Assembly: GCF_001484195.1 (NCBI RefSeq)
Contig: NZ_LLYW01000038.1
Location: forward strand, 1-48,591
Length of the DNA: 48,591 bases
From: Thermococcus celericrescens
GTDB taxonomy: Archaea; Methanobacteriota_B; Thermococci; Thermococcales; Thermococcaceae
Direction: 5' to 3'
Shown here: piece by piece, positions 26,974 to 40,836 of the stretch
Layout of the letters: each line of letters opens with the position of its first letter
Position numbering within the stretch: position 1 is the first letter of the stretch
Translations under genes and position numbers: made by a program
Notes under the pieces: model-generated
Seen by the model: only the letters and a program-made list of their open reading frames with translations
Databases searched by the model: none
What the model was told of the DNA's origin: nothing

Positions 26974-27053
26974 TCCCTCACCCCCAAAGAAGAAAGATGA
27001 TTGTGGTTAAAACGGTATTGGAACTGTTGTGATTGGAACCTCAAACCGCATTG

Positions 27054-27061
27054 TTTATATA
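27054..27061 (+). promoter_or_regulatory. TATA box of dac
   Basis: TTTATATA about 50 bases before the ATG at 27110; the ribosome site GGGGTGG is five bases before that start. Confidence 0.55.
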
Positions 27062-27109
27062 TTATGAGGATTTTGTAAAACTGGTGGAAATTGTAATGGG
27101 GTGGCACTG

Positions 27110-27910
27110 ATGTTTGAGGATGTGAACGATTTTGAGGATGCCCTGGAAAAGCTCCTCAAAGAGCTTGAATTCGACCTCTCGAATCCATTTGAGGAAGTCG
27201 AAAAGGTTCTGTGCATCGAACCCCACCCGGACGACTGCGTCATAGGCCTGGGGGGCACGATAAAGAAGCTGACGGATGCGGGCGTGGAGGTCGTTTACGT
27301 CTGCATGACCGACGGCTCAATGGGAACTCTTGACGACGACCTGAGCTCCCACGAGCTTGCCATCGTGAGAAAGCGCGAGGAGGAAGAGAGTGCGAGGATG
27401 CTCGGCGTCAAAAGGATAATCTGGCTTGACTACCGGGACACCGAGCTTCCCTACACGAGGGAGGCCAGAAAAGACTTAGTAAAGATAATCCGCGCCGAGA
27501 AGCCGGACGCGGTTCTCGCCCCCGACCCCTGGCTCCCCTACGAGGCACATCCGGACCACAGAAGGGCGGGCTTCCTGGCCCTCGACGCCGTGGCCTTCTC
27601 TCAGCTTCCCAACTTCGCAAGCACCGACGTGGCGGCCGGCCTGGAACCCCACCAGGTCGAGGTCTTCGGCTTCTACTACACGGCGAAGCCCAACTACTTC
27701 GTGGACATAACCGACGTCATGGAGCTCAAGCTGAGGGCGATACGGGCCCACAGAAGCCAGTTCACCGATGACGTTTGGGAGAAATGGGAGCCCTTCCTGA
27801 GAACGGTGGCACTCTACTACGGTAAAAAAGCGGGAGTGAAGTACGCCGAGGGGCTGCGCTTCATGCCGGGCATGTTCCTGCACATAACGCCCTTCGCGGA
27901 GCTGATTTAA
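27110..27910 (+). CDS. dac: Diacetylchitobiose deacetylase (PIG-L/LmbE family)
   Basis: A 266-residue zinc deacetylase that removes the acetyl group from the non-reducing GlcNAc of chitobiose and from GlcNAc itself. Zinc ligands H39 and D42 lie in HPDD, and H150 in AHPDH; these match His44/Asp47/His155 of the characterised Pyrococcus enzyme with a constant offset of five. The motifs CMTDGSMGT and DYRDTELPY are typical of the Dac subgroup. It heads the chitooligosaccharide locus, as in T. kodakarensis. The stop codon overlaps that of the convergent PIN gene by 4 bp. Confidence 0.94.
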
Positions 27911-28356
27911 CCCAGCTCCATCTTCACCATTATCTCGAGTTCCTTCAGGAACTTCTCGAGGGGCATCGTGTCCAGGCCGAACTGCCTGATCGATTCGTAC
28001 CTCTTGGGGTCGTCCGTGACAAGCAAACTGCCCGTGCAGATAGCCGTTGCGGCGGTTAAGATGTCCTCAAGGTCGAGCATCTTCCCCTTCTGGAGGAGTT
28101 GGGCCTCTATCCGGGCCGCTTTAACGAGTATCTCATCACTCAGGGGGACTACCGTGTAGATGTCCCTCAGTACCTCCAGCTCCCCCTCGACGTTCTTCTT
28201 GAGGTACGCACGAACCGAAAGGTAGCGGTAGAGCGTGATGGCCGAGAGCGAGACGGTGAACTTGGCCAGCGTTATCTCCAGCTGCCTCTTTCTGCTGGCG
28301 GTGTGCATCTTGAGGAGCGTCCGGCTGTCGAAGGTTATCTCCGATGGGAGCGGCAT
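27907..28356 (-). CDS. PIN-domain protein, VapC-like, degenerate active site
   Basis: A 149-residue PIN-like protein. D10 (TFDSRTLLK) and the third and fourth acidic regions ([21 protein letters not shown]) are present, but the usual second acidic residue in the helix after SAITLY is replaced by Arg (LYRYL). Catalysis may be weakened, or another residue may substitute. It follows the small antitoxin-like gene by 4 bases, so it is probably the toxin-side partner of a VapBC-type pair lodged between dac and the GH1 gene. Confidence 0.8.
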
Positions 28357-28359
28357 GAT

Positions 28360-28569
28360 TCAACTCCCCTTCTTCTTTTCGAGCAGGTTGATGAGCATCT
28401 CGGCCTCTTCGTCGTCCATTATGACGTTGTCAACCTTCTTGTCGAGCTCGACGAGGTGCCAGGTCTCTATGAGCTTCTGGAGCACCTCATCGTAGGAGCG
28501 AGCCTCAAGCTTGTCCTTGAGGAGCTTTATCTTCTTCCATGTGCTCTCATCAACTGCTATCGTTTTCAT
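28360..28569 (-). CDS. Small antitoxin-like protein paired with the PIN gene
   Basis: A 69-residue protein starting MKTIAVDESTWKKIKLLKDKLEARSYDEVLQKLIE, a strand plus helices typical of archaeal VapB-like antitoxins, with an acidic/basic tail. It overlaps the 3' end of the GH1 gene by 20 bp and has its own GGAGGGG site there, so it may be co-transcribed with the glycosidase as well as with the PIN gene. Confidence 0.78.
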   Translation of the reverse strand: MKTIAVDESTWKKIKLLKDKLEARSYDEVLQKLIETWHLVELDKKVDNVIMDDEEAEMLINLLEKKKGS

Positions 28570-30022
28570 CTCCCAACCCCTCCGTGACTATTCTTCTATA
28601 CGTCTCCACGCTCTTTCTACGCGGGATTCTCTCCTTGGTTATCAGGTCGACCTCGTATAGGCCGAAGCGTATCTTGAACCCCATCGCCCACTCGTAGTTG
28701 TCCGTCAGCGCCCAGTGGAAGTAGCCCCGAACGTCGGCGCCGTTCTCAATCGCCCTGAACAGCTCCCTCACGTGGCTGACTATGTACCGCGGCCTCAGTA
28801 TGTCCTTGGAATCTGCTACCCCGTTCTCGGTTATGTAGACCGGCTTTCCGTACTCCGCGGCTATCATCGTCGAGTCGTATATACCTTTCGGATAAACCTC
28901 CCACCCGAAGTCGCTGGTCGGGTTGTTGTCGGGCGAGACGCCCATCGGATTTCCGGAATAGCCGTATCCCTCGGCACCCACGAAGCTGACCATCGGCAGC
29001 TCCTTGAACTTCGGCTCGACCCACTTAACAACCTCCCTGGTGTAGTAGTTGTTTCCTATCCAGTCGTTCCTGGCCAGGTGGTTGATCTTAACCTCCTCCC
29101 GGTTCAGTTCTAGGTCAACCCGGCCGTCATTGAGGGCGTTGAGGAAGAGCCGGTTGTGGAAGTAGTCGTAATTTTCCGCGGCTTTAACGTCCCGCTCGTC
29201 CCTTGGGTTCAGGGGATAGGCGGGGATTATGTTGAGGATTATCCCTACCGGTGCCTTGGAGAACTCCTTTATCGCGTCGTAGGCCCTTGCATGTGCGACC
29301 ATCTGGTGAATTATGACCTTCTTCGCCGCGTTGGGGTTTAGTATCCCCGGCGGCCAGCCGACGTAGGGGGCGAGGTAGCCGAGCTCAACGGTAACCATCG
29401 GTTCGTCGAAGGTAGCCCAGAAATCCACCAGGTCCGGGAACTTCCACGCAACGTACGCCGAGAACTTAACGAACTCGACTATGCTCCCCTCGTCAACCCA
29501 GCCCCTTGCCCTCGCCCCTTCGGGGTTCCTCCTCACCTCGATGGGGTTGTGCAGCCACAGGGGGAGGGTCTGGTGGTTGAGTGTCACGAAGGTCGAGAAG
29601 CCGAGCTTCTTGAGGTTCTTCAGCACGGCTCTGTAGTGGGCGACCTCGGAATGGTTGGCCAGTCCATCGAGCTCCTCCAGGGTTTCCTTCTTGATTTTAA
29701 CGCGCTTTATCAGGCCGTAGGAGTCCCTCTCAACCTCGGCATCGACGCCGAAGGTCGGGCACGGGAAGATTCTGCTCCACTCTATCGTGAGCTGATAGGC
29801 GTTTAAATCCAGGTCCTTGGCGAGTCTGTGGTCGATTTCGTATAGCTCGTAATTGTTTATGCCGTCCTCGGGCAAATCGCCGCTGACGAGGTCGTTCTTG
29901 ATGTTGAACGGATCGCGGACCCACTGCCACCAGTCGCTCCTCGCGTCTATGGCCTGCCGTAGGGGGTCACCCATCTCGAACTGAAAGGCCGACTGAACGA
30001 CGCCCCAGTAAAATTCTTCCAT
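28550..30022 (-). CDS. GH1 family beta-glycosidase with Asn-to-Asp change in the NEP motif
   Basis: A 490-residue family 1 glycoside hydrolase, a retaining enzyme with a TIM barrel. Acid/base E207 lies in TFDEP and the nucleophile in YITENGV. The Asn that normally precedes the acid/base Glu (NEP) is Asp206 here (GAC at 29405-29407). C-terminal GYFHWALTDNYEWAMG is the aglycone/sugar-binding Trp-Glu region. It sits in the chitobiose locus at the same place as the T. kodakarensis beta-glycosidase, so chitooligosaccharide or glucosaminide cleavage is likely, but mannosidase or glucosidase activity is possible. The ATG follows AGGTGG by five bases. Confidence 0.92.
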   Translation of the reverse strand: MEEFYWGVVQSAFQFEMGDPLRQAIDARSDWWQWVRDPFNIKNDLVSGDLPEDGINNYELYEIDHRLAKDLDLNAYQLTIEWSRIFPCPTFGVDAEVERDSYGLIKRVKIKKETLEELDGLANHSEVAHYRAVLKNLKKLGFSTFVTLNHQTLPLWLHNPIEVRRNPEGARARGWVDEGSIVEFVKFSAYVAWKFPDLVDFWATFDEPMVTVELGYLAPYVGWPPGILNPNAAKKVIIHQMVAHARAYDAIKEFSKAPVGIILNIIPAYPLNPRDERDVKAAENYDYFHNRLFLNALNDGRVDLELNREEVKINHLARNDWIGNNYYTREVVKWVEPKFKELPMVSFVGAEGYGYSGNPMGVSPDNNPTSDFGWEVYPKGIYDSTMIAAEYGKPVYITENGVADSKDILRPRYIVSHVRELFRAIENGADVRGYFHWALTDNYEWAMGFKIRFGLYEVDLITKERIPRRKSVETYRRIVTEGLGDENDSS

Positions 30023-30055
30023 CGGTTCCACCTAGGCAGTTATAGATTTTAGTGT

Positions 30056-30063
30056 TTTTATAA
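30056..30063 (-). promoter_or_regulatory. TATA box of the GH1 gene
   Basis: TATAAAAA on the minus strand, about 34-41 bases before the ATG at 30022. Confidence 0.5.
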
Positions 30064-30163
30064 TTTTCCTACTCGTGCTGCCGTGACGCCGTGGTGCATT
30101 GGCCGTGCCCGTCGCTTCTGTTCTCATGAACTTTTATGTGCACTGTATACCCATCCTGTTCAC

Positions 30164-30229
30164 CAAAAAGCTTATATAGATTCTCAGTATGTTATAAAAT
30201 TGACATTGTTTATAATGAGGTGGGAAACT
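30164..30229 (+). promoter_or_regulatory. Promoter/leader of the binding-protein gene
   Basis: Three TATA-like elements (CTTATATAG near 30171, TTATAAAA near 30192, TTTATAAT near 30209) precede the ATG at 30230. Only the first leaves room for the GAGGTGGG ribosome site in the transcript, so it is the best candidate. No TGM-type CAC-N5-GTG repeat was found here. Confidence 0.45.
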
Positions 30230-32065
30230 ATGAAAAAGTACCTCACCCTTGCCCTGGTGGCTCTTCTGCTTGGGAGTTTAGCAGGCTTTGCAAGTGCCGC
30301 TGAGGAGAAAGGCCCCGCAAACTTCGGCAACTATTACAACGCTGAGGCTAACGAGCTCCTGAAGGCCCTCGCAACTGCCTCCGATGAGAACAAGCAGGTT
30401 GAGTACCTGGGGGAGCTGACCAAGATATGGCTTCAGGACGTTCCAGCCGTTCCCGTCTACACGGGTACGGTCTTCTACGAGGCCAACACCAAGTACTGGA
30501 AGGACTGGCCCAACGAAAAGAACCCCTACGGCGTCCCGATATTCTGGGCCGGCTTCGGAACCTGGGGAACCGCCCTGGCCCTCCTCGGCGTCAAGCCGAC
30601 TGGAGTGCAGGACGATGCCGGTGGCGACTTCCCGAGGCACGAGACGATATACACCGCCAACAGCGCTCCCCCGACCAGCGCCAACCCCTTCCAGGGCGGC
30701 AACATAATTGGCATAGACGGTCTCGTCTTCGAGCCCCTCTTCATGCTGAACTTCATGACGACGGAACTCAAGCCCTGGCTCGCCGAGAGCGGCACCTGGG
30801 TGAACGACAACACCTTCGAGGTCAAGCTTCGCGAGGGAACGAAGTGGCAGGACGGTCGGCCGTTGACGGCGGAGGACGTCAAGTTCTCCTTCGAGTACTA
30901 CGAGAAGCTCGGCCTCAAGGACTGGAGCTCCCTGGGGCTCAAGGAGATAAAGGTCGTTGATGATAGAACGGTTGACTTTGTTTTTGAGGGCAAGCCCAAC
31001 GTCTGGGCCTGGAGGAGCAACCTCTACTCCGTTCTCATTATCCCGAAGCACGTCTTTGAGAGCCTCGACCCCGATAAGGTCAAGACCATGACCTTCACCG
31101 GCGATGACAAGCAGTACCTCGTCGGTTCCGGCGCCTACAGGCTCAGGGAGGTCGTCCAGCAGCAGAAGTCCATCCTTGAGAGGAACGACAACTGGTGGGG
31201 TGCGAAGTACTTCAATGAACCCGCCGCCAAGTACATCATCCAGCTCTACGTTTCAAGCAACGACCAGGCCGCCAACATGTTCCTCAAGGGCGACCTCGAC
31301 GTCGCAACGTACTACCTGGACATCGCCGAGCTCAAGAAGCAGAACCCGAACATCGTCAGCTGGCTCAATAGTGAACCCTACTTCCCGCCCGTCGTCCCGG
31401 TGGTTCTCTACTTCAACACCGCCCATGAGCCCCTGAACAACCCTGGGGTCAGGAGGGCGATAGCCATGGCCATCAACCCGCAGCAGATCGTTCAGCAGGG
31501 TCCGATAAGCGCCGTCCCCGACCAGACCCCGCTCGGACCCATCATGCAGGGCTGGAAGGACAAGATAGGCGCCGACCAGCTCATCAACGAGTACGGCTGG
31601 AAGTACGGCGACATAGCGGGGGCCATAAAGATACTCGACAGCCTCGGCATCAAGGACACCGACGGTGACGGCGTAAGGGAGTACAACGGAAAACCCCTTG
31701 AGCTTCATTTCGTTACCTGCTCCGGCTGTTCCGACTGGATACAGGCGGGCGAGATCATAGCCAACCAGCTCAAGCCCCTTGGAATAAAGGTGGTCATCGA
31801 CAAGGGTGACTGGACCAACTTTTTCATGCAGAAGCTCAACAGCGGCAACTTCGATCTTGCGCTCCACTGGGCCGGAACCTTCAAGCCCGACCCGTACAGC
31901 GTCTACTACAGCATCATGTACAACGAGAATCCGCCGGCCACGCCGGCCCCGACGACAACGACCACCACGTCATCCACACCGTCCACCACGACCACGCCCT
32001 CGACCACCTCACCGACGACCACGCAGCCCGAGCGGAACCACAACTACAACCGGTGGCGGAGGTAG
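30230..32065 (+). CDS. ABC solute-binding protein (Opp/Dpp type), apparently circularly permuted, frameshifted at the end
   Basis: A 611-residue product. After the signal peptide (1-23) and AEEK come residues 28-124, whose features (NYYNAEANELL, EIWLQDVPAVPVYTG-like, TKYWKDWPNEKNPYGVP, GTALALLGVKP) are those of the last ~100 residues of cluster C binding proteins. Only then follows the normal N-terminal part (HETIYTANSAPPTSANPFQGG, residue 137 on) and the main body to NENPP (569). The Thr/Ser-rich linker follows directly where the C-terminal lobe should be. The frame then breaks at the CCC of 32027-32029, so the membrane anchor is not translated. It is presumably the chitooligosaccharide receptor of the importer encoded downstream. 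Confidence 0.88.
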   Translation: MKKYLTLALVALLLGSLAGFASAAEEKGPANFGNYYNAEANELLKALATASDENKQVEYLGELTKIWLQDVPAVPVYTGTVFYEANTKYWKDWPNEKNPYGVPIFWAGFGTWGTALALLGVKPTGVQDDAGGDFPRHETIYTANSAPPTSANPFQGGNIIGIDGLVFEPLFMLNFMTTELKPWLAESGTWVNDNTFEVKLREGTKWQDGRPLTAEDVKFSFEYYEKLGLKDWSSLGLKEIKVVDDRTVDFVFEGKPNVWAWRSNLYSVLIIPKHVFESLDPDKVKTMTFTGDDKQYLVGSGAYRLREVVQQQKSILERNDNWWGAKYFNEPAAKYIIQLYVSSNDQAANMFLKGDLDVATYYLDIAELKKQNPNIVSWLNSEPYFPPVVPVVLYFNTAHEPLNNPGVRRAIAMAINPQQIVQQGPISAVPDQTPLGPIMQGWKDKIGADQLINEYGWKYGDIAGAIKILDSLGIKDTDGDGVREYNGKPLELHFVTCSGCSDWIQAGEIIANQLKPLGIKVVIDKGDWTNFFMQKLNSGNFDLALHWAGTFKPDPYSVYYSIMYNENPPATPAPTTTTTTSSTPSTTTTPSTTSPTTTQPERNHNYNRWRR

Positions 32066-32132
32066 CACCTGCGGTCCGGCCGCCCTGATCCTACTGGCGG
32101 CGGTGCCCCTCCTCCTGAGGAGGAGGCGCTGA
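32027..32132 (+). other. Out-of-frame C-terminal membrane anchor of the binding protein
   Basis: In the +1-shifted frame the sequence continues as GTTTTTGGGGSTCGPAALI and LLAAVPLLLRRRR, then TGA at 32130-32132. This is a typical Thermococcales C-terminal tether: Thr linker, CGPA, hydrophobic helix, Arg stop-transfer. Removing one C from CCC at 32027-32029 restores the joined frame (QPSGTTTTT). Confidence 0.8.
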
Positions 32133-32150
32133 GTTCTTCCTTTTCTTTTA
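32133..32150 (+). terminator. T-rich run between binding-protein and permease genes
   Basis: GTTCTTCCTTTTCTTTTA after the anchor stop; it could attenuate transcription so that the binding protein is made in excess over the permeases. Confidence 0.35.
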
Positions 32151-32169
32151 AATCGATGGGGGGAAACGA

Positions 32170-33162
32170 ATGGGGTTCAGGAAGTACCTGCTCAGGAAGA
32201 CGGTGGTTTACCTGATAACCTTCCTCTTCGCGGTTACGCTCAACTGGCTCCTGCCCAGGCTCATGCCCGGCAATCCAATCGAGGCCATGATAGAATCCAA
32301 CCTCAACCTCGCCCCCGGCGAGAAGGAGATACTCATAAAGTTTTATGAGGAGCTTTATGGCCTCAACGAGCCCCTCTGGAGGCAGTTCGTGAACTTCTGG
32401 GTTAGGCTCTTCCACGGGGACCTCGGCTACAGCCTTCTCTACAAGGCCCCGGTGTGGGATTTAATCAAGCACGCCCTTCCCTATGATATTGCCATCCTCC
32501 TCCCGGCCATAGCGCTCAGCTGGCTGGTCGGAAACTGGCTGGGCGCGATAGCGGGTAAGAATACGAGGTACGACCGCTACATGATGCCCATCTTCTACTT
32601 CCTCGCGAGCATGCCCTACTTCTGGTTCGCCATGCTTCTCGTCTACTTCGTCGGCGTCAGGGCCGACCTGCTCCCCTACCAAGGTGCCTACGACCCGGCC
32701 CTCGTTCCCAGCCTCTCTTGGGAGTTCATAAAGAGCTTCCTGGAGCACTGGATTCTTCCCTTCCTGAGCCTCTTCACAGTCATGATCGGCAGCTGGGCAA
32801 TCGGAATGCGCAACATGATCATCTACGAGCTTGAGGCCGATTACGTCCGCTATCTCGAAGCCCTCGGCGCGAGCGAGAAGCTCATGACCAAGCACGCCTA
32901 CAGGAACGCTATCCTTCCCCAGGTCACCGGTCTGGCGCTTCAGCTCGGCCTGATGGTTGCTGGAGCTATAGCGACGGAGATAGTCTTCAACTACCCCGGC
33001 ATTGGAATCCTCCTCATGAACGCCGCGCTTAGCCAGGACTACTTCCTGCTCCAGGGGGCGTTCCTCATGGTCGTGGTCTCGGTTCTCGCGGCGAACTTCA
33101 TCATAGACATAGTCTACGCCTTCATTGACCCGCGCGTCAGGACAAGCTACACGGAGGGTTGA
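32170..33162 (+). CDS. ABC importer permease, DppB/OppB type
   Basis: A 330-residue inner-membrane permease with six TMs. The N-terminal KTVVYLITFLFAVTLNWLLPRLMPGNP is the OppB signature. The EAA loop that contacts the ATPase is YLEALGASEKLMTKHAYRNAILPQVTGLALQLG (about 234-266). It forms the translocation channel with the next gene product. Confidence 0.94.
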   Translation: MGFRKYLLRKTVVYLITFLFAVTLNWLLPRLMPGNPIEAMIESNLNLAPGEKEILIKFYEELYGLNEPLWRQFVNFWVRLFHGDLGYSLLYKAPVWDLIKHALPYDIAILLPAIALSWLVGNWLGAIAGKNTRYDRYMMPIFYFLASMPYFWFAMLLVYFVGVRADLLPYQGAYDPALVPSLSWEFIKSFLEHWILPFLSLFTVMIGSWAIGMRNMIIYELEADYVRYLEALGASEKLMTKHAYRNAILPQVTGLALQLGLMVAGAIATEIVFNYPGIGILLMNAALSQDYFLLQGAFLMVVVSVLAANFIIDIVYAFIDPRVRTSYTEG

Positions 33163-33164
33163 AG

Positions 33165-34118
33165 ATGGCCAGGGAGAGCAAGCTCTACAAGTTCAAACTC
33201 GCCATGAGGAACAACAAGTTCCGCTTCGGCTTTGGGGTACTCCTGTTTTTCGTGGTATTCGCCATAATCGGCCCCCTATTCACGGTGTTCTTGAGCGATG
33301 GCCTCTATTACGAGACCATACCCGGAACGAACATCACGGTGGCGACGTACTCCACCAAGACCCTCCCGCCCATGACGCGAGAGGTGCTCACGACCTACAC
33401 AGGCAGGCAGGTGGAGGTTCTCCACATCCTCGGAACCGACAAGCTCGGAAAAGACCTCTACGCCCTCCTCGTCTACGGTCTGAGGACCAGCCTCTGGGTG
33501 GCGGTGCTGGCGGCGGTGATTGGAACCGCACTCGGAATCACCATAGGCTTCATAGCGGGCTACAAGGGCGGACTGACCGACGAGCTGCTCATGATGTTCG
33601 TCAACATAATGCTGGTTATCCCGTCGATAGTGCTCCTAATCCTCGTGGCGGCTTACCTTGAAGCCAGAAGCCCTGAGGTTCAGGCGGTCATCATAGGTCT
33701 AACCGGCTGGCCCTGGGTGGCTAGAGCCGTTCGCTCCCAGACCCTCTCGCTAAAGAACCGCGAGTTCGTGAACCTGGCGAGGATAGTCGGCCTCAGCGAC
33801 CTCAGGATAATCTTCGAGGAGATAATGCCCAACATGATTTCCTACATCTTCATGGTCGGAATCCTGCAGTTCAGCGGCGCGATACTCGCCTCAGCGACGC
33901 TCGACTTCATAGGCCTCGGCCCAACGACGGCGGTATCGCTGGGAACGATACTCCAGAAGGCGATAGCCCACAACGCCCTCCAGTTCGGCTGGTGGTGGTG
34001 GTTCATTCCGCCCGGGCTGATAATCACCCTCATCATCACGGCGTTGTTCTTCATCAACCTGGGAATGGAGGAGGCATTCAACCCGAGGCTTAGGAGGGAA
34101 TGTCATGCTCACCGTTGA
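33165..34118 (+). CDS. ABC importer permease, DppC/OppC type
   Basis: A 317-residue permease. The OppC features are a basic N-terminus, TM1, an extracellular segment, then LGTDKLGKDLYALLVYGLRTSLWVA (about 87-111) and the EAA loop FVNLARIVGLSDLRIIFEEIMPNMI. It starts at ATG 33165, two bases after the upstream stop, and its 3' end overlaps the first ATPase gene by 14 bp, so production is coupled. Confidence 0.94.
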   Translation: MARESKLYKFKLAMRNNKFRFGFGVLLFFVVFAIIGPLFTVFLSDGLYYETIPGTNITVATYSTKTLPPMTREVLTTYTGRQVEVLHILGTDKLGKDLYALLVYGLRTSLWVAVLAAVIGTALGITIGFIAGYKGGLTDELLMMFVNIMLVIPSIVLLILVAAYLEARSPEVQAVIIGLTGWPWVARAVRSQTLSLKNREFVNLARIVGLSDLRIIFEEIMPNMISYIFMVGILQFSGAILASATLDFIGLGPTTAVSLGTILQKAIAHNALQFGWWWWFIPPGLIITLIITALFFINLGMEEAFNPRLRRECHAHR

Positions 34119-35070
34119 GAACCTTAAAATTTACTACGCGACTCCCGTCGGCCACGTAAAGGCCGTTGACGGCGTCAGCTTCGAGGTCAAGGAGGGGGAG
34201 GTCTTCGGCATAGCCGGCGAGAGCGGCTGCGGGAAATCAACGCTCGTCCACTCCCTTATCCTCAGAAAGCCCCCGATGGTTCACATGGGTGGAAAGGCGC
34301 TCTTCAAGGGAAGGGACCTGATGAGGCTGAGCGAGGAGGAGGCTAGGAGGATACGCTACAGTGAACTCTCCATAATCCCCCAGTACGCGATGAACGCCCT
34401 CAACCCCACCAAGAAGATAAGGGACATAGTCTGGGATTTGGCGAAGGAACACGGCCAGACGGACAGGGAAGAGGTCGAGAAGCTCCTTCGCGAGAGGCTG
34501 GCGATGGTGAAGCTCAGTCCCAATGTGGCGAATATGTACCCCGTCGAGCTGAGCGGTGGAATGCGCCAGCGCGCCACAATGGTCGTCTCAACGCTTCTCA
34601 ACCCGGATCTGCTCATAGCGGACGAGATAACCTCCGCCCTGGACGTCACGACCCAGCGCGTCGTCATCGAGCTGCTCCACCACTTCATGGAGGAGGGCAT
34701 AGTCAAGTCGGTAATCTTCGTCACCCACGACCTGGCGATACTCGACAAGATAGCGGACAGGATAATGATCATGTACGCGGGCAAAGTCGTCGAAATCGGC
34801 CCCACGGAGGAGATAATCAACAACCCGGTTCATCCATACACCCGGCTTCTCCTCAACTCCCTGCCGAGGATGGGCGTGCAGTACAAAAAGCAGAAGCTGA
34901 GCGGCATTCCAGGCTACCCGATAAGCCTGCTCAACCCCCCTAAGGGCTGCCGCTTCTACACCCGCTGTCCTTACGCCCTCGACAAGTGTCCCCACGTCGA
35001 GCCCGGGCTCGTGAGGGTCGGCGAGGGGCACTACGCGGCCTGCCATCTCCTTGGAGGTGAGGAGCAATGA
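34105..35070 (+). CDS. ABC importer ATPase, OppD type
   Basis: A 321-residue ATPase. Walker A GESGCGKST (about 38-46), Q-loop near IIPQYAMNALNP, signature LSGGMRQR, Walker B LLIADEIT (the usual Pro after Glu is Ile) and H-loop VTHD. The C-terminal Opp domain has four Cys (CRFYTRC...C...AC), a site that in relatives can hold an iron-sulfur cluster. Pairs with the next ATPase. Confidence 0.95.
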   Translation: MLTVENLKIYYATPVGHVKAVDGVSFEVKEGEVFGIAGESGCGKSTLVHSLILRKPPMVHMGGKALFKGRDLMRLSEEEARRIRYSELSIIPQYAMNALNPTKKIRDIVWDLAKEHGQTDREEVEKLLRERLAMVKLSPNVANMYPVELSGGMRQRATMVVSTLLNPDLLIADEITSALDVTTQRVVIELLHHFMEEGIVKSVIFVTHDLAILDKIADRIMIMYAGKVVEIGPTEEIINNPVHPYTRLLLNSLPRMGVQYKKQKLSGIPGYPISLLNPPKGCRFYTRCPYALDKCPHVEPGLVRVGEGHYAACHLLGGEEQ

Positions 35071-36029
35071 GCCTTCTCGAAGTCGAACACCTGACCAAGG
35101 TATTCACCTCAGGTCTGATTGGCGGCTTTGAAATCCGGGCCGTTGACGACGTCAGCTTCACCGTTGGAAAGGGCGAGATAGTTTCCCTCGTCGGCGAGAG
35201 CGGGAGCGGAAAGACCACCGTCGGGAAGCTCATCCTCAGGCTGATAAAGCCAACCTCCGGAAGGATACTCTTCGAGGGTCGGGAGGTAACCGAGCTGAGC
35301 AAGAAGCAGCTGAGGAGGGAGTACTACAAGGACGTCCAGGCGGTGTTCCAGGACCCCTTCGCGAGCTTCAATCCCCTCCACGAGATTGACAGGGCCTTTG
35401 ACCTGGTCTTTCGGTCGTTCTTCCCGGACGTTGGTCAGGACGAGCGTGACGAGATGATAAACGGCGCGCTGACCCAGGTCGGTCTGAATCCGAGCGAGGT
35501 ACACGGCAAGTTCCCGCACCAGCTCAGCGGAGGCCAGCTGCAACGCATACTCATAGCGAGGGCCCTCCTTGTGAAGCCGAAGCTCCTCATAGCCGACGAA
35601 GCCGTTTCAATGCTCGACGCGTCAACCAGAATCGACATCCTCAACCTCCTCGGCGACTTCAGGGACAGGTACGACACCTCGATTCTCTTCGTCACCCACG
35701 ACCTGGCGCTCGGATACTACATCAGCGACTCGACGATAATCATGTACCGCGGAACCATCGTTGAGATGGGCGACACGGAGAAGGTCTTCCACAACCCGCT
35801 GCATCCTTACACCCGGATGCTCCTGGAGAGCGTTCCCGATTTGAACGTCAAGTGGGAGTTCAAGGGAATCGAGCCCGAGAAGGAGGAGCGCGGCATCTAT
35901 GAGATAGCCGGATGCCGCTACGCGCCTAGATGCCCGAAGGCCAAGGACGTTTGTTTCAAGATTCGTCCCGAGCTTCGTGAGGTCGAGAAGAACCACTGGG
36001 TTGCCTGTCATCTCTACGGGGGTGGTTGA
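35067..36029 (+). CDS. ABC importer ATPase, OppF type
   Basis: A 320-residue ATPase. Walker A GESGSGKTT, Q-loop AVFQDPFASFNP, signature LSGGQLQR, Walker B LLIADEAVSMLD, H-loop VTHD, and a C-terminal four-Cys segment (CRYAPRCPKAKDVCFK...AC). It overlaps the OppD-type gene by 4 bp. OppD and OppF types together form the heterodimer that powers this importer. Confidence 0.95.
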   Translation: MSLLEVEHLTKVFTSGLIGGFEIRAVDDVSFTVGKGEIVSLVGESGSGKTTVGKLILRLIKPTSGRILFEGREVTELSKKQLRREYYKDVQAVFQDPFASFNPLHEIDRAFDLVFRSFFPDVGQDERDEMINGALTQVGLNPSEVHGKFPHQLSGGQLQRILIARALLVKPKLLIADEAVSMLDASTRIDILNLLGDFRDRYDTSILFVTHDLALGYYISDSTIIMYRGTIVEMGDTEKVFHNPLHPYTRMLLESVPDLNVKWEFKGIEPEKEERGIYEIAGCRYAPRCPKAKDVCFKIRPELREVEKNHWVACHLYGGG

Positions 36030-37010
36030 ATGCACGCGACGCTGAGGGAGATAAGGAAAACTCCGGAGGGGATACTCACCGCCCAGAAGGCCTTTGAGGA
36101 CTTCCTAACCCATCACGACTTCCGGTTACCGAGGGAGATAGTTTACACTGGCTGTGGCAGCTCACACTTCCTGTCGCAGCCGCTGGCCATGGCAACCACC
36201 CGCCTTGGGGGCAGGGGGTTCAGCGCCCCCTGCTCCGAACTTCTGTATTCGCGGGAGTGGTACCCAATAGGAAATCCCGAACTTCTCGTCGCCATATCGC
36301 GCTCCGGTGAGACAACCGAGGCCATAAAAGCCCTCGATGCCCTGAACGTTCCCAGGTTCGCCCTCACCGCCTACGAGAGCGGCCTTTCAAGGAAGTCAGA
36401 CTACGCCCTAATCGTCCCAGCTCACGAGGAGAGCGTCGTCATGACCCACTCCTTCACGGCCTTCTACTTCGCCTTCCTGCAGCTTCTCCTCCATTCGTAC
36501 GGGCGGGAAACCTACGATGCGGAACTCGTCTCGTCGCTAACTAAGGAAGTCCTGGGGAGCGAGGAGTACATCAGGGAAATCGTCAACGGCTTTGACTTCA
36601 GAAACGTCATCTTCCTCGGCTCCGGAATACTCTATCCGGTGGCGCTTGAGGCCATGCTGAAGATGAAGGAGATGGCCCTCTTCTGGAGCGAGGCCTACCC
36701 GACCTTCGAGGTCAGGCACGGCTTCAAGTCCATAGCCGACGACGGAACCCTCGTGGTTCTACTCGTGGACGAGCCCTTCGAGTGGCACGAAAAGCTCACG
36801 GAGGAGTTCCAGGGGCAAAAAGCGAGGGTTCTCACCGTTGGAAGGCACGATGCTGGAGCCGATTACTTTATCGAGGTCCCAGAGCTGGGCCCACCGGCTA
36901 ACGTGGTTCTCTATCTGCCGGTTATCCAGCTCCTCGCCTACTACAAGGCCGTTGAGCGTGGACTCAATCCGGACAGGCCGAGGTTTCTGAGCAAGGTGGT
37001 GAAGTGGTGA
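36030..37010 (+). CDS. glmD: Glucosamine-6-phosphate deaminase, SIS-domain archaeal type
   Basis: A 326-residue protein with two SIS domains. The first holds [15 protein letters not shown] and [16 protein letters not shown]; the second holds [22 protein letters not shown]. The archaeal enzyme deaminates glucosamine-6-phosphate to fructose-6-phosphate, replacing the unrelated NagB of bacteria. The glutaminase half of GlmS is absent. It follows the ATPase stop with no gap and overlaps glmA by one base, so it is the penultimate gene of the operon. The placement just before glmA equals T. kodakarensis. Confidence 0.9.
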
Positions 37011-39364
37011 TGGTTATGAAGGTTGAGCACGACGGCAGAGTTTACGTTATCGATGGCGAGAGAGTGGTGATCTACGGCGGAACGCTCCAGTTCTTCCGCG
37101 TTCCGAAGAGACACTGGCGCGACAGGCTGGAAAAAATGAAGAGGCACGGCCTCAACATCGTCGATACCTACGTCGTCTGGAACTGGCACGAGCCCTCGAA
37201 GGGTGAGCTCGACTTCACCGGAGAAACAACTCCAGAGAGGGACATGGTGGGATTCCTTGAGCTGGTTCAGGAGCTGGAGATGTACGCCATCGTCAGGCCC
37301 GGCCCATACATCTGCGGCGAGTGGCGGAACGGCGGAATCCCCGACTGGCTCATCAACGAGCACCCCGAGATACTCGCCAGGGGGCCGGACGGGGCCCTTC
37401 CACGGGACATCTATTATCCACCCATCACGTACCTGCATCCGACCTACCTGAAGGCCGTTTCTGAGTGGTATGAGGCTGTTCTGCCGGTAATCCGGGACTA
37501 CCTCTACACCAAAGGGGGCCCCATAATAAGCGTCTCAATCGATGACGAGCCCTCATACTGGGAGACGATATTCCAGCCGTTCCTCACCGATTACAACGAT
37601 GTCGTCGCTAAACCCGGCGGCCTCTGGGAGGGATGGCTCAGAGAAAACTACCCCCTTGAAACTCTCGCGGAGCGGTACGGAGCTGAAATCTCGGACTACG
37701 GGGAGGTCAAACCCCCGACCGACCCATCGGAGCCCCTCACAAAGCTCCTCGACTGGCACCACTTCAAGATATGGATGACCAACCACTACGTCGAGATCCT
37801 CTACGACCACCTGAGGCGCTACGTTGATGTCCCGATAAGCATACTCGACCCCTACCTTCTCCTGGCGGCGTGGAGGCACTTCTACCGCTACGTGAGGGAG
37901 AGGAACCTCGATATTCACCTCTGGACGGAGTTCTGGTACTCCTTCTACCGCTCCTTCGACTTCAAGGAGGACAGGCTCGGGCACATCTATTACAAAACCG
38001 GAATCTACCGCTTCTACCAGGGAAAACTTGGAACGCCGCCGCTGAGCATAGAGACCCAGGTCTCGCTGGCCCACACGATAGAGCCGGACGAGGCCGAGCT
38101 GCTCTACGCACTCCTTCCTGCCCTTGGAATTCACAACATCAACTACTACCTCTACGCCGGTGGAGAGAACCCCGAAGGCTACGAGTCGCACAACGGAGTA
38201 ACCTGGGACGTTTACTCGCCGATAGGCCTTGATGGAAGTGAAAGGCCGCACGTCGAGCCCATTAGGTGGCTCGGTGAGTTTCTGAGGGGCAACCCAGGTT
38301 TCGTGGAAAGTGGGCTCAAGCCAAGGGTCGCCTTCGGGAGCTACGAGCCCTACGAGCCCCTCGCGGTGTGGGGGCTTAGAGGCGACCTGAAAGAGAGCGT
38401 CAACCTCAACGAGTACCTTCTTGGAGAGCGCGGGCTTTTGACGCTCCTGGCGATGAGTAACGTGCCCTTTGACGTTCTGGACTTGGAGGAGGCGAGCGTC
38501 GGGGAGATGTTAGAGTACAACCAGCTCTGGGTTTACAGCCTCGACTTCATGGCCAGGGACGTTCAGGACAAGCTGGTAGAGTTCATTGAGCGGGGCGGCA
38601 ACCTCGTAATCCTCCCGATGCTTCCCTACCTCGACGAGAACATGAAGCCGTACTCCGCCCTGGCCGATTATCTCGGCGTTGAGGTTAGGATAGCCGAGGC
38701 GAGGGACAACTTCAGGCTCATCCCCTTCGTCAGCGTCTCCTCGGACGGGATTGACAGGATGATAACCAGGAACGTTGCCAGGGAGGTGAGGGGAGGAACT
38801 CCCATAGCCTTCGCCGACGGAAAGCCCGTCGGAGCGCTCGTTCGGAAGGGGACAGGGAGCGCAGTAGTCCTGGGCTTCAGGCTCCAGTACTTCAGCAGCC
38901 ACCACGACCTCCACAGAAAGTTCGTTGATAAACTGCTGTCCCTTCAGGGCGTTAGACGGGACTTTGAGGTCACAGACGGTGACATGATAGCGATTCCCCG
39001 CGGGAACTACCTGGTTCTCGCCAACCCGCGCGGCCACAGGGTCTTCGGAAAGATTAGGTACAACGGGCTTGAGGTTCCAAGGCTCATGGATGGAATAGAG
39101 ATGAGGAAGCGCGGCGTTCTCTTCCTGCCCTTCGGGGTCAGGTACGGGGATGTCGAGGTCGTTTACTCCACGGCGACCGTCCTCAGCAGGGACGGCGACG
39201 TGCTCCACCTCCGCAACCACCTCTCGGGCCTGAGTGAGGTGGCGCTGAGGAACGTTGAGGACGTCAGGGCCGTTGGGGGCAGGATAGTGGACGAATCTCT
39301 CTCCGGGGGTGTTCTGACGGTTCTCGTAGAGCACGAGGCCGGAAGCTTTGAGCTGGAGTTTTGA
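37010..39364 (+). CDS. glmA: Exo-beta-D-glucosaminidase (GH35-type)
   Basis: A 784-residue cytosolic glycosidase that removes glucosamine from the non-reducing end of partly deacetylated chitooligosaccharides. An N-terminal TIM barrel has YGGTLQFFRVPKRHWRDRL and RPGPYICGEWRNGG. Catalytic E180 (SIDDEPS) and E348 (LSIETQVS) align with the two catalytic Glu (179 and 347) of the T. kodakarensis enzyme with an offset of one. A Trp- and Tyr-rich barrel end, a Rossmann-like domain (about 430-640) and C-terminal beta domains follow. ATG 37010 overlaps the glmD stop (TGATG); GTG 37004 and ATG 37016 are alternatives. Confidence 0.95.
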   Translation: MVMKVEHDGRVYVIDGERVVIYGGTLQFFRVPKRHWRDRLEKMKRHGLNIVDTYVVWNWHEPSKGELDFTGETTPERDMVGFLELVQELEMYAIVRPGPYICGEWRNGGIPDWLINEHPEILARGPDGALPRDIYYPPITYLHPTYLKAVSEWYEAVLPVIRDYLYTKGGPIISVSIDDEPSYWETIFQPFLTDYNDVVAKPGGLWEGWLRENYPLETLAERYGAEISDYGEVKPPTDPSEPLTKLLDWHHFKIWMTNHYVEILYDHLRRYVDVPISILDPYLLLAAWRHFYRYVRERNLDIHLWTEFWYSFYRSFDFKEDRLGHIYYKTGIYRFYQGKLGTPPLSIETQVSLAHTIEPDEAELLYALLPALGIHNINYYLYAGGENPEGYESHNGVTWDVYSPIGLDGSERPHVEPIRWLGEFLRGNPGFVESGLKPRVAFGSYEPYEPLAVWGLRGDLKESVNLNEYLLGERGLLTLLAMSNVPFDVLDLEEASVGEMLEYNQLWVYSLDFMARDVQDKLVEFIERGGNLVILPMLPYLDENMKPYSALADYLGVEVRIAEARDNFRLIPFVSVSSDGIDRMITRNVAREVRGGTPIAFADGKPVGALVRKGTGSAVVLGFRLQYFSSHHDLHRKFVDKLLSLQGVRRDFEVTDGDMIAIPRGNYLVLANPRGHRVFGKIRYNGLEVPRLMDGIEMRKRGVLFLPFGVRYGDVEVVYSTATVLSRDGDVLHLRNHLSGLSEVALRNVEDVRAVGGRIVDESLSGGVLTVLVEHEAGSFELEF

Positions 39365-39378
39365 CTCCACTGTCTCCT

Positions 39379-40523
39379 TCACGCTTTTTTATTCTGGGCT
39401 TTGAGGGCATTGAGGACTTCTTCAAACGGGGCATCGGTCTTGAGGGCCATCGGCGAAAAGTGGGTTCTCGTTGCAGAGTAGCCTTTATCGCGGAGAATCT
39501 CGATTATCTCCGCGAGCTTTCCGACCTGAAGGTTGTTCCTCCTAGCAAGGGCATGGGTGTCGTAGTGGAAGGGGGTGTCCAGCTCCCCCGCGAGGGTTTC
39601 GAGGAACGGGAGCGTCTTCTTGTGGGCGAGGGGGTACTCCCCGGCCAGCTTCAGCATATCGTCAACGAACCCCTGGCTCTTTAGCGGACCGAGCCAGAGG
39701 GGGCCGTATGAGCCCGGTTTTCTGGGCAGGAAGGAGTTCTCATACTCAAACCTACCGTTTTCATCCTGCCACAGGTAGCCGAGCCCTTCAATGCTCCCGT
39801 CGGCCTTCTTCGCGCCGCTCTTGAGCCTCAGAAAGACCCTGAAGTAGTGGTCGCGGTAGTAGGCGAGAAGAACCTCGACGCCGAGGTCGTATTTGGCGGC
39901 GTACCTGACAACGGTTCCGATGAGTATCCTCAAACCTGCCTCGTGGCAGAGCTCGCCCCTTATCGCTCCGCCAGGTACTTCCTGCGGCAGGCGTGCCGGT
40001 AGGCCCCGCAGAGGACGCCGGTGTCGGTGGCGGTGACCGCTAAAATGCCCCTTCTTCTGACGCTCCTCAGAGCGGTGTCGAGAAACTCCAGGGGAGAGCC
40101 GAAGGGGTCGAGGTCGAGGAAGTCAAAGTAGCGGAACTTCTCGGCCATGAGCCGGTTAGCGTCGTCGAGGTTGGCCACAACCCTCTTCTCTTCTCCGAAG
40201 GAGAACCTCTTCTCACCTATCCTCTCCCCATCAACGCCGAGGTTCAGCCGGACGTTTTCCAGAATCAGGTTGAAGGCCTCTTCGCTTATGTCGTTGAGCC
40301 AGACCTCCTCGGCGGGGGTTTCGAGGGTGTAGCGGATGCCCCGGATTCCGGTGGCCGAGAGGGCATCGAGAACGGTCCGCGGTTTGAGTACCCCCACGGC
40401 GAGGACGCTTATGTCCCTGTTCAACGCCATGACCGGGTTGTAGAAGACCGGGGCGTCGTATATCCTCTCCGCCTTCGGGACAAGGATTTTTGCAAGACCC
40501 TCGCGCACCTCGACGAACTCCAT
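39379..40523 (-). pseudogene. trm1: tRNA (guanine26-N2)-dimethyltransferase, one-base deletion frameshift
   Basis: Trm1 makes m2,2-G26 in tRNA using S-adenosylmethionine. The N-terminal part (from ATG 40523, about 185 codons) has [25 protein letters not shown], the catalytic [14 protein letters not shown] and TDTGVLCG...RKYLAE; the C-terminal part continues in another frame with [42 protein letters not shown]. Adding one base at about 39964-39965 (restoring CCG ATA AGG) joins them to about 381 codons, the normal length. A short 3' end otherwise intact argues for a sequencing error or a very recent mutation. Confidence 0.88.
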
Positions 40524-40569
40524 TCTCTCACCGGAGAAAGAAAAGGTTGGGAGGTTTAAAGGGTTGCGC

Positions 40570-40836
40570 TCAGAGGATTTCGACGTAGTCACCGACCGCC
40601 TGTCCAGGCAGTCCTGGCTTGAAGTAGGCCTTAACCTCGCCCCTGTTGCCGTGCGTCCTGAGGATTTTGCCGTACATTCTCCTGCCGGTTGGAGTCCTCC
40701 AGACGACCTTCCTGCCTATGAGCCTCGAAGCAGTGCTCCTGTCGTCGATGCCGAGGGGCTTCAGAATCATGTGGTGGTTGTTCTGGTGCTCCTTCGTCCC
40801 GGCGTAGGCAAGGACGAGAGCCTTTCCCCTGGCCAT
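40570..40836 (-). CDS. rpl35ae: 50S ribosomal protein L35Ae
   Basis: An 88-residue large-subunit protein: [20 protein letters not shown], then [48 protein letters not shown], the family core. The ATG at 40836 has a GGAGGTGGGG site; an earlier in-frame start would add thirteen residues with no match to the family. It lies upstream of trm1 on the same strand, with a 46-base gap. Confidence 0.95.

Follow-up and report, generated by a model that had tools for sequence, protein, structure and literature searches.

A probable natural circular permutant among cluster C solute-binding proteins, encoded in a Thermococcus chitin operon

Anatomy of the gene and its operon

We analyzed a 48,591-nt stretch of DNA (the window), contig NZ_LLYW01000038.1 in the 73-contig draft genome of Thermococcus celericrescens. 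It contains a gene for an ABC solute-binding protein in which two large blocks, A and B, have exchanged places, within an operon for an importer and sugar-processing enzymes. The features are as follows; G numbers denote comparison genomes.

27101..27910, + strand: PIG-L family deacetylase, diacetylchitobiose deacetylase-like (Pfam PF02585, E 1.6e-35)
30170..30179, + strand: putative TATA-like promoter element GCTTATATAG, read from the sequence; same motif upstream in G010
30217..30222, + strand: Shine-Dalgarno sequence GAGGTG, 7 nt before the ATG, read from the sequence; same in G010
30230-32065, + strand: permuted binding-protein gene, ATG at 30230
30230..30298, + strand: signal peptide, residues 1-23, MKKYLTLALVALLLGSLAGFASA, aligning with the signal peptides of normal orthologues
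30308..30598, + strand: block B, residues 27-123 (KGPANFGNYYN...LLGVKP), moved to the front (tblastn block order, 4pfu alignment, AF2 elements)
30599..30625, + strand: new 9-residue linker TGVQDDAGG, joining the old C terminus to the old N terminus (junction alignment)
30626..31927, + strand: block A, residues 133-566 (DFPRHETIY...YSIMYNE), the SBP_bac_5 (PF00496) body (Pfam; identity to orthologues)
31928..31936, + strand: vacated junction NPP between block A and the Thr linker; normal genes have NETDKG and then block B (junction alignment)
31937..32051, + strand: Thr/Ser/Pro-rich stalk (alignment to the G030 and G018 tails)
32070..32129, + strand: CGP-CTERM membrane-anchor segment CGPAALILLAAVPLLLRRRR, from the +1 frame translation; out of frame in the window assembly
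32170..34118, + strand: two ABC permeases (BPD_transp_1), same operon (Pfam)
34105..36029, + strand: two ABC ATPases with oligo_HPY tails, Opp/Dpp type (Pfam)
36030..39364, + strand: SIS-domain protein (GlmD-like) and GlmA-like exo-beta-glucosaminidase (Pfam SIS, GLMA_C, GLMA_2nd)

Along the product, the order is signal peptide, block B, TGVQDDAGG, block A, NPP, and Thr-rich stalk. Block A is a clear SBP_bac_5 body, with PF00496 matching residues 179-566 (E 1.4e-75; 255.1 bits against a cut-off of 32.4), and it is 82-88% identical to the normal orthologues of the nearest species. Block B is the C-terminal block of the fold, comprising the end of lobe II, the hinge strand, and the C-terminal part of lobe I. 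In an ordinary cluster C protein this block stands behind the body and closes lobe I; here it is present ahead of the body, which makes the protein a permuted derivative of cluster C rather than an ordinary member. Both segments are complete and their order is reversed, the arrangement that defines a natural circular permutant. The rotation is also apparent against the solved T. maritima protein 4pfu, in which residues 135-565 of the query align with chain positions 4-433 and residues 29-124 with positions 443-540.

Normal genes read SVSAEDFPR-NETIY at the front junction, MYYKNETDKGAANFGNY at the border of blocks A and B, and LLGVQPAQTPTP at the stalk, while the permuted genes read SAAEEKGPANFGNY and LLGVKPTGVQDDAGGDFPRHETIY, with the stalk following as MYNENPP(A/E)TPTP. 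The chain is opened in a variable loop (YKNETDKG in normal genes), and the old ends are linked by about nine new residues. This linker, TGVQD-D/N-A/G/T-GG, occurs in all three permuted genes found (see below), and the junction alignment places no counterpart in normal genes. A reading of the DNA made without database searches (the sequence-only reading) had proposed a circular permutation of a cluster C binding protein, and alignment to Thermococcus homologues, a check it suggested, confirmed the rotated order relative to normal orthologues. Block B lies directly behind the signal peptide and block A comes next. The N-terminal region, placed by that reading at about residue 135, begins with D133, and the Thr linker follows NENPP, where the C-terminal block should be.

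The pairs of Opp-type permeases and oligo_HPY ATPases adjoin the gene, as seen by Pfam and synteny, and the permease pair is conserved beside both permuted and normal genes. In Thermococcales, such a gene set serves diacetylchitobiose uptake and breakdown. From this context, the permuted protein would most likely still be the tethered capture protein of a chitin-sugar importer. Its chain would fold into the same two-lobed trap, which would bind a chitin oligosaccharide and feed the same Opp-type permeases. A small open reading frame (27907-28356, - strand) between the deacetylase gene and a GH1 gene looks like a PIN/VapC-type protein and occupies the same place in 8 of 8 neighborhoods compared.

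Distribution and single origin of the permuted order

Among 61 Thermococcus genomes, the query found an unbroken match in two besides that of the window: G030 (93% identity, residues 1-602) and G010 (89%, residues 1-600), where the gene lies on a chromosome contig of 2.23 Mb. The genes of all three species have the block order, the junctions, and the new linker in common. Many other Thermococcus genomes carry block A followed by block B within a few bases. We compared block order by tblastn with block A (residues 133-567) and block B (residues 28-124) as queries. Apart from these three genes, all loci that hold both blocks had the order A-B, among the Thermococcales orthologues compared as well as in Chloroflexota and other bacterial relatives. 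A survey of 115 genomes from the phylum gave no continuous match beyond the three, and the order is also normal in the best solved relatives that we examined. In the gene tree of the binding protein, the permuted sequences form one clade with a support of 100. Since outgroups and solved relatives are normal and the permuted genes are a single clade, the permuted order is derived and arose once; it is also present in independent genomes. Homologues with the same order, which the sequence-only reading had said would speak against a permutation, therefore do exist, but only in two close relatives that share a clade with the window gene.

Exchange of the permuted allele between lineages

The permuted clade does not follow the species grouping. 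We built the rpoB tree on DNA because rpoB of the window assembly is frameshifted; it groups the window and G010 with G032 and G002, and G030 with G018, G001, and G024. The rpoB data reject the three permuted genomes as a clade (p 7e-116), and the binding-protein gene in turn rejects the species grouping (p 1e-78 for G030 with G018; p 4e-6 for the window, G010, and G032). This conflict indicates that the permuted allele moved horizontally.

The pattern of DNA identity along the operon points the same way. The operon flanks of the window are 91-94% identical to G018 (first permease, 90%) and only 75-83% to G010, and the binding-protein gene and first permease are 88-93% identical to G010. Relative to G010, identity is about 80% before position 30,300 or so, 85-92% from there to about 33,100, and lower again beyond. 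The stalk region at 31,900-32,100 is G018-like (93%, versus 72% to G010). Judged from these identities, the operon is a mosaic in which the permuted allele appears to have been exchanged with its neighbors, replacing normal alleles.

Several further observations concern the extent of exchange. A recombination border lies inside the gene, at 31,900-32,100, where a G018-like stalk and anchor meet a permuted-type body and a G010-like first permease. The window is similar to G010, G032, and G024 before about 27,000 and to G018 from 27,100 on, against the rpoB grouping. The whole chitin operon (27,000-39,400) looks exchanged between Thermococcus lineages. The sequence-only reading overlooked both the horizontal spread and the frameshift described next.

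A frameshift ahead of the membrane anchor

The reading frame, previously described as open throughout, is open up to the Thr linker, and the CGP-CTERM tail (32070-32129) lies in the +1 frame. Relative to G030, the window stalk has a 1-bp frameshift near 32021-32025, which cuts off the anchor. The CGP_CTERM model TIGR04288 matches in frame in G010 (E 2.7e-6) and G018 (E 1.6e-6), and the G030 anchor is intact by sequence. Other conserved genes of the window assembly are broken likewise. Its rpoB (G000:C16:3525-5312, L099) is split over two frames, with both parts 99% identical to G010 rpoB. The trm1 gene (tRNA dimethylguanosine methyltransferase; 39379-40592, - strand) appears as two open reading frames with a frame change at ~39940, both halves matching PF02005, and this split is probably a base-calling error of the assembly. 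Given the state of these two genes, the stalk frameshift is probably a sequencing error as well. It does lie near the recombination border, and a real mutation is a possible alternative.

Predicted fold and position of the tether

AF2 predicts a two-lobed fold for the permuted chain (pLDDT 82.8, pTM 0.84; normal orthologue, 90.7 and 0.88), in a model that partly imposes the ordinary fold, as the AF2 alignment for block B consists of fragments of normal orthologues. Confidence is lowest at the new N terminus and at mature residues 71-90. The element lists of the two models largely match after rotation. In the moved block, where a structure prediction had been suggested as a check, the match is one to one: mature-chain elements H14-25, H29-46, E49-56, E60-62, and H90-96 correspond to H451-461, H466-483, E486-493, E497-499, and H523-533 of the normal model.

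In a Foldseek search, the permuted model matches mannobiose-bound 4pfu best among PDB entries; the alignment is confined to block A and spans about 430 columns, against about 550 columns and the full length for the normal model. This restriction is expected for a permutant, because Foldseek respects chain order. Over block A the fold matches are 4pfu, 4pft, and 1zu0. The top matches by fold and by sequence all belong to cluster C, and none points to a type I/cluster B fold. According to the established anatomy of DppA and OppA, block B starts in lobe II and passes into lobe I about halfway along. This puts the cut within lobe II, so both new chain ends are predicted to emerge there, and the stalk would be attached to lobe II rather than to lobe I.

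Conservation and selection

The permuted form is under purifying selection. Within the permuted clade, dN/dS is 0.09-0.13 for block A and 0.03-0.09 for block B, in the range of normal genes. Of the invariant columns defined from 22 normal orthologues (190 in A and 42 in B), 184 and 41, respectively, are kept in all three permuted genes. Compared with the seven nearest normal genes, the permuted genes have nine fixed differences in each block, and eight of the nine in block B fall within the first 25 residues after the new N terminus. The same block B sites also differ between some normal clades, so this cluster of replacements is suggestive only; the extra replacements near the new N terminus could reflect adaptation or mild relaxation.

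Origin of the rearrangement and alternative explanations

The N-block and C-block swapped order once, between a signal peptide and a stalk that kept their places. Because these ends stayed, the rearrangement fits either of two routes. In one, the mature-domain coding region would have been duplicated internally and in frame, and the first N-block and the last C-block then lost; in the other, a segment of about 290 bp would have been moved by cut-and-paste (transposition). One of these two routes is the most likely path, and both fit the data equally. None of the orthologues showed a duplicated intermediate (B-A-B or A-B-A-B), and there are no long direct repeats at the junctions. The word GGCCCCG, which had been put forward as a possible micro-homology scar, does occur at 30311-30317 and 31945-31951. 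As a scar it found no support: the window contains it 10 times, where chance alone would give 13.3 copies, and G030 and G010 lack it both at the front junction (GGTCCAG and GGTCCGG) and behind NENPP.

The order could in principle be a misassembly or binning artifact of a draft genome, which the sequence-only reading had considered the main alternative, and the window assembly does have indel errors (the rpoB split and the trm1 split at ~39940). Two further genomes, 89-93% identical, repeat the order, junctions, and linker, and substitutions among the three are spread as expected for separate species, which leaves this explanation practically negligible. A chimera of tandem genes, also raised by that reading, is excluded in the genome of the window, which has no second full-length copy; the sole other match there is weak (E 1.5e-6). 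More broadly, block B might derive from a different binding-protein gene and have replaced a lost C-terminal block. The permuted sequences do sit slightly deeper in the B tree than in the A tree, and fixed differences in block B are more numerous than among normal orthologues. However, block B shares 75-78% identity with its closest orthologues at this operon position (63-76% with the rest), its extra differences cluster at the new terminus, and synonymous divergence in B exceeds that in A among normal genes too. The 115 genomes searched in the phylum contain no gene that could be the donor, with a C-block clearly nearer to the permuted block B than those of the orthologues, and we consider such a domain chimera very improbable.

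A further explanation accepts the permuted gene as real but treats it as decaying, its transport role lost and the gene kept by chance or with a replaced function. The frameshift before the membrane anchor in the window copy and the raised dN on the branch to the permuted clade would agree with decay. Yet reading frames and anchors are intact in two species, dN/dS within the clade is 0.03-0.13, nearly all invariant residues are kept, and the genome lacks a second binding-protein gene of the same type. The window frameshift is itself probably an error, as other conserved genes of that assembly are frameshifted too. Decay is therefore improbable. With a probability of roughly 0.86, we conclude that the gene is a natural, young circular permutant, the cluster C binding protein of a Thermococcus chitin-sugar ABC importer.

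Discussion

The Thermococcus permutant shares with SBP_bac_5 cluster C proteins (OppA, DppA, NikA) both sequence halves, the PF00496 body, the Opp-type permease/ATPase operon, the signal peptide, and the predicted two-lobed fold. The same family includes the T. maritima mannoside-binding proteins TM1223/TM1226 (4pft/4pfu) and the Vibrio chitooligosaccharide-binding protein (1zty/5yqw). Unlike other cluster C proteins, it has the C-block before the N-block, a new linker, and new termini in a loop that is internal elsewhere.

Natural permutation of a binding protein has a precedent in TpMglB-2 (Tp0684) of Treponema, a permuted glucose-binding protein classed as 'Type Ic / Cluster Bc', which is tethered and still binds glucose and closes (PMC4990184). 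Its authors suggested that the permuted topology may be an adaptation to tethering, and its permuted part is barely recognizable by sequence, at 13% identity (PMC4990184). Both cases are natural circular permutations of a tethered ABC-importer binding protein. TpMglB-2 is type I/cluster B, old, and widespread, whereas the Thermococcus permutant belongs to cluster C and is recent: it retains 75-88% identity to normal orthologues of its operon gene, and close species carry one order or the other. Engineered permutants of binding proteins (biosensors and ribose-binding-protein halves) show that these folds tolerate new termini (PMC9815098); those are laboratory constructs, whereas the Thermococcus permutant is a natural gene. 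Other natural circular permutations include swaposin and permuted DNA methyltransferases, for which permutation by duplication is the usual model and cut-and-paste is rarer (PMC3320104). In contrast to these, the Thermococcus gene kept its signal peptide and stalk at the ends, and only the inner segment rotated.

Our literature search, which covered few subscription journals, found no report of natural circular permutation in cluster C proteins, in line with the sequence-only reading, which knew of no natural permutation in the family but overlooked the TpMglB-2 precedent in another binding-protein class. Natural permuted binding proteins are thus already known, and the special value of this cluster C case, for which we found no earlier report, lies in its youth and its close normal orthologues. 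We raise only tentatively a stronger proposal: that this is the first natural cluster C permutation and an advantageous one, in which the shift of the stalk from lobe I to lobe II would alter trap closing or docking, and that the allele spread by replacing normal alleles in the chitin operon.

Most natural circular permutations are too old for the event to be reconstructed. In this case, close species carry either form of the same operon gene, and the permuted and normal bodies are still 82-88% identical. In genetically tractable hyperthermophiles, matched natural pairs of this kind therefore allow tests of what the permutation costs or gains the protein in function, how the rearrangement took place, and what difference the tether position makes. 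The case also bears on the suggestion made for TpMglB-2, that tethered binding proteins may have become permuted to suit their anchoring (PMC4990184).
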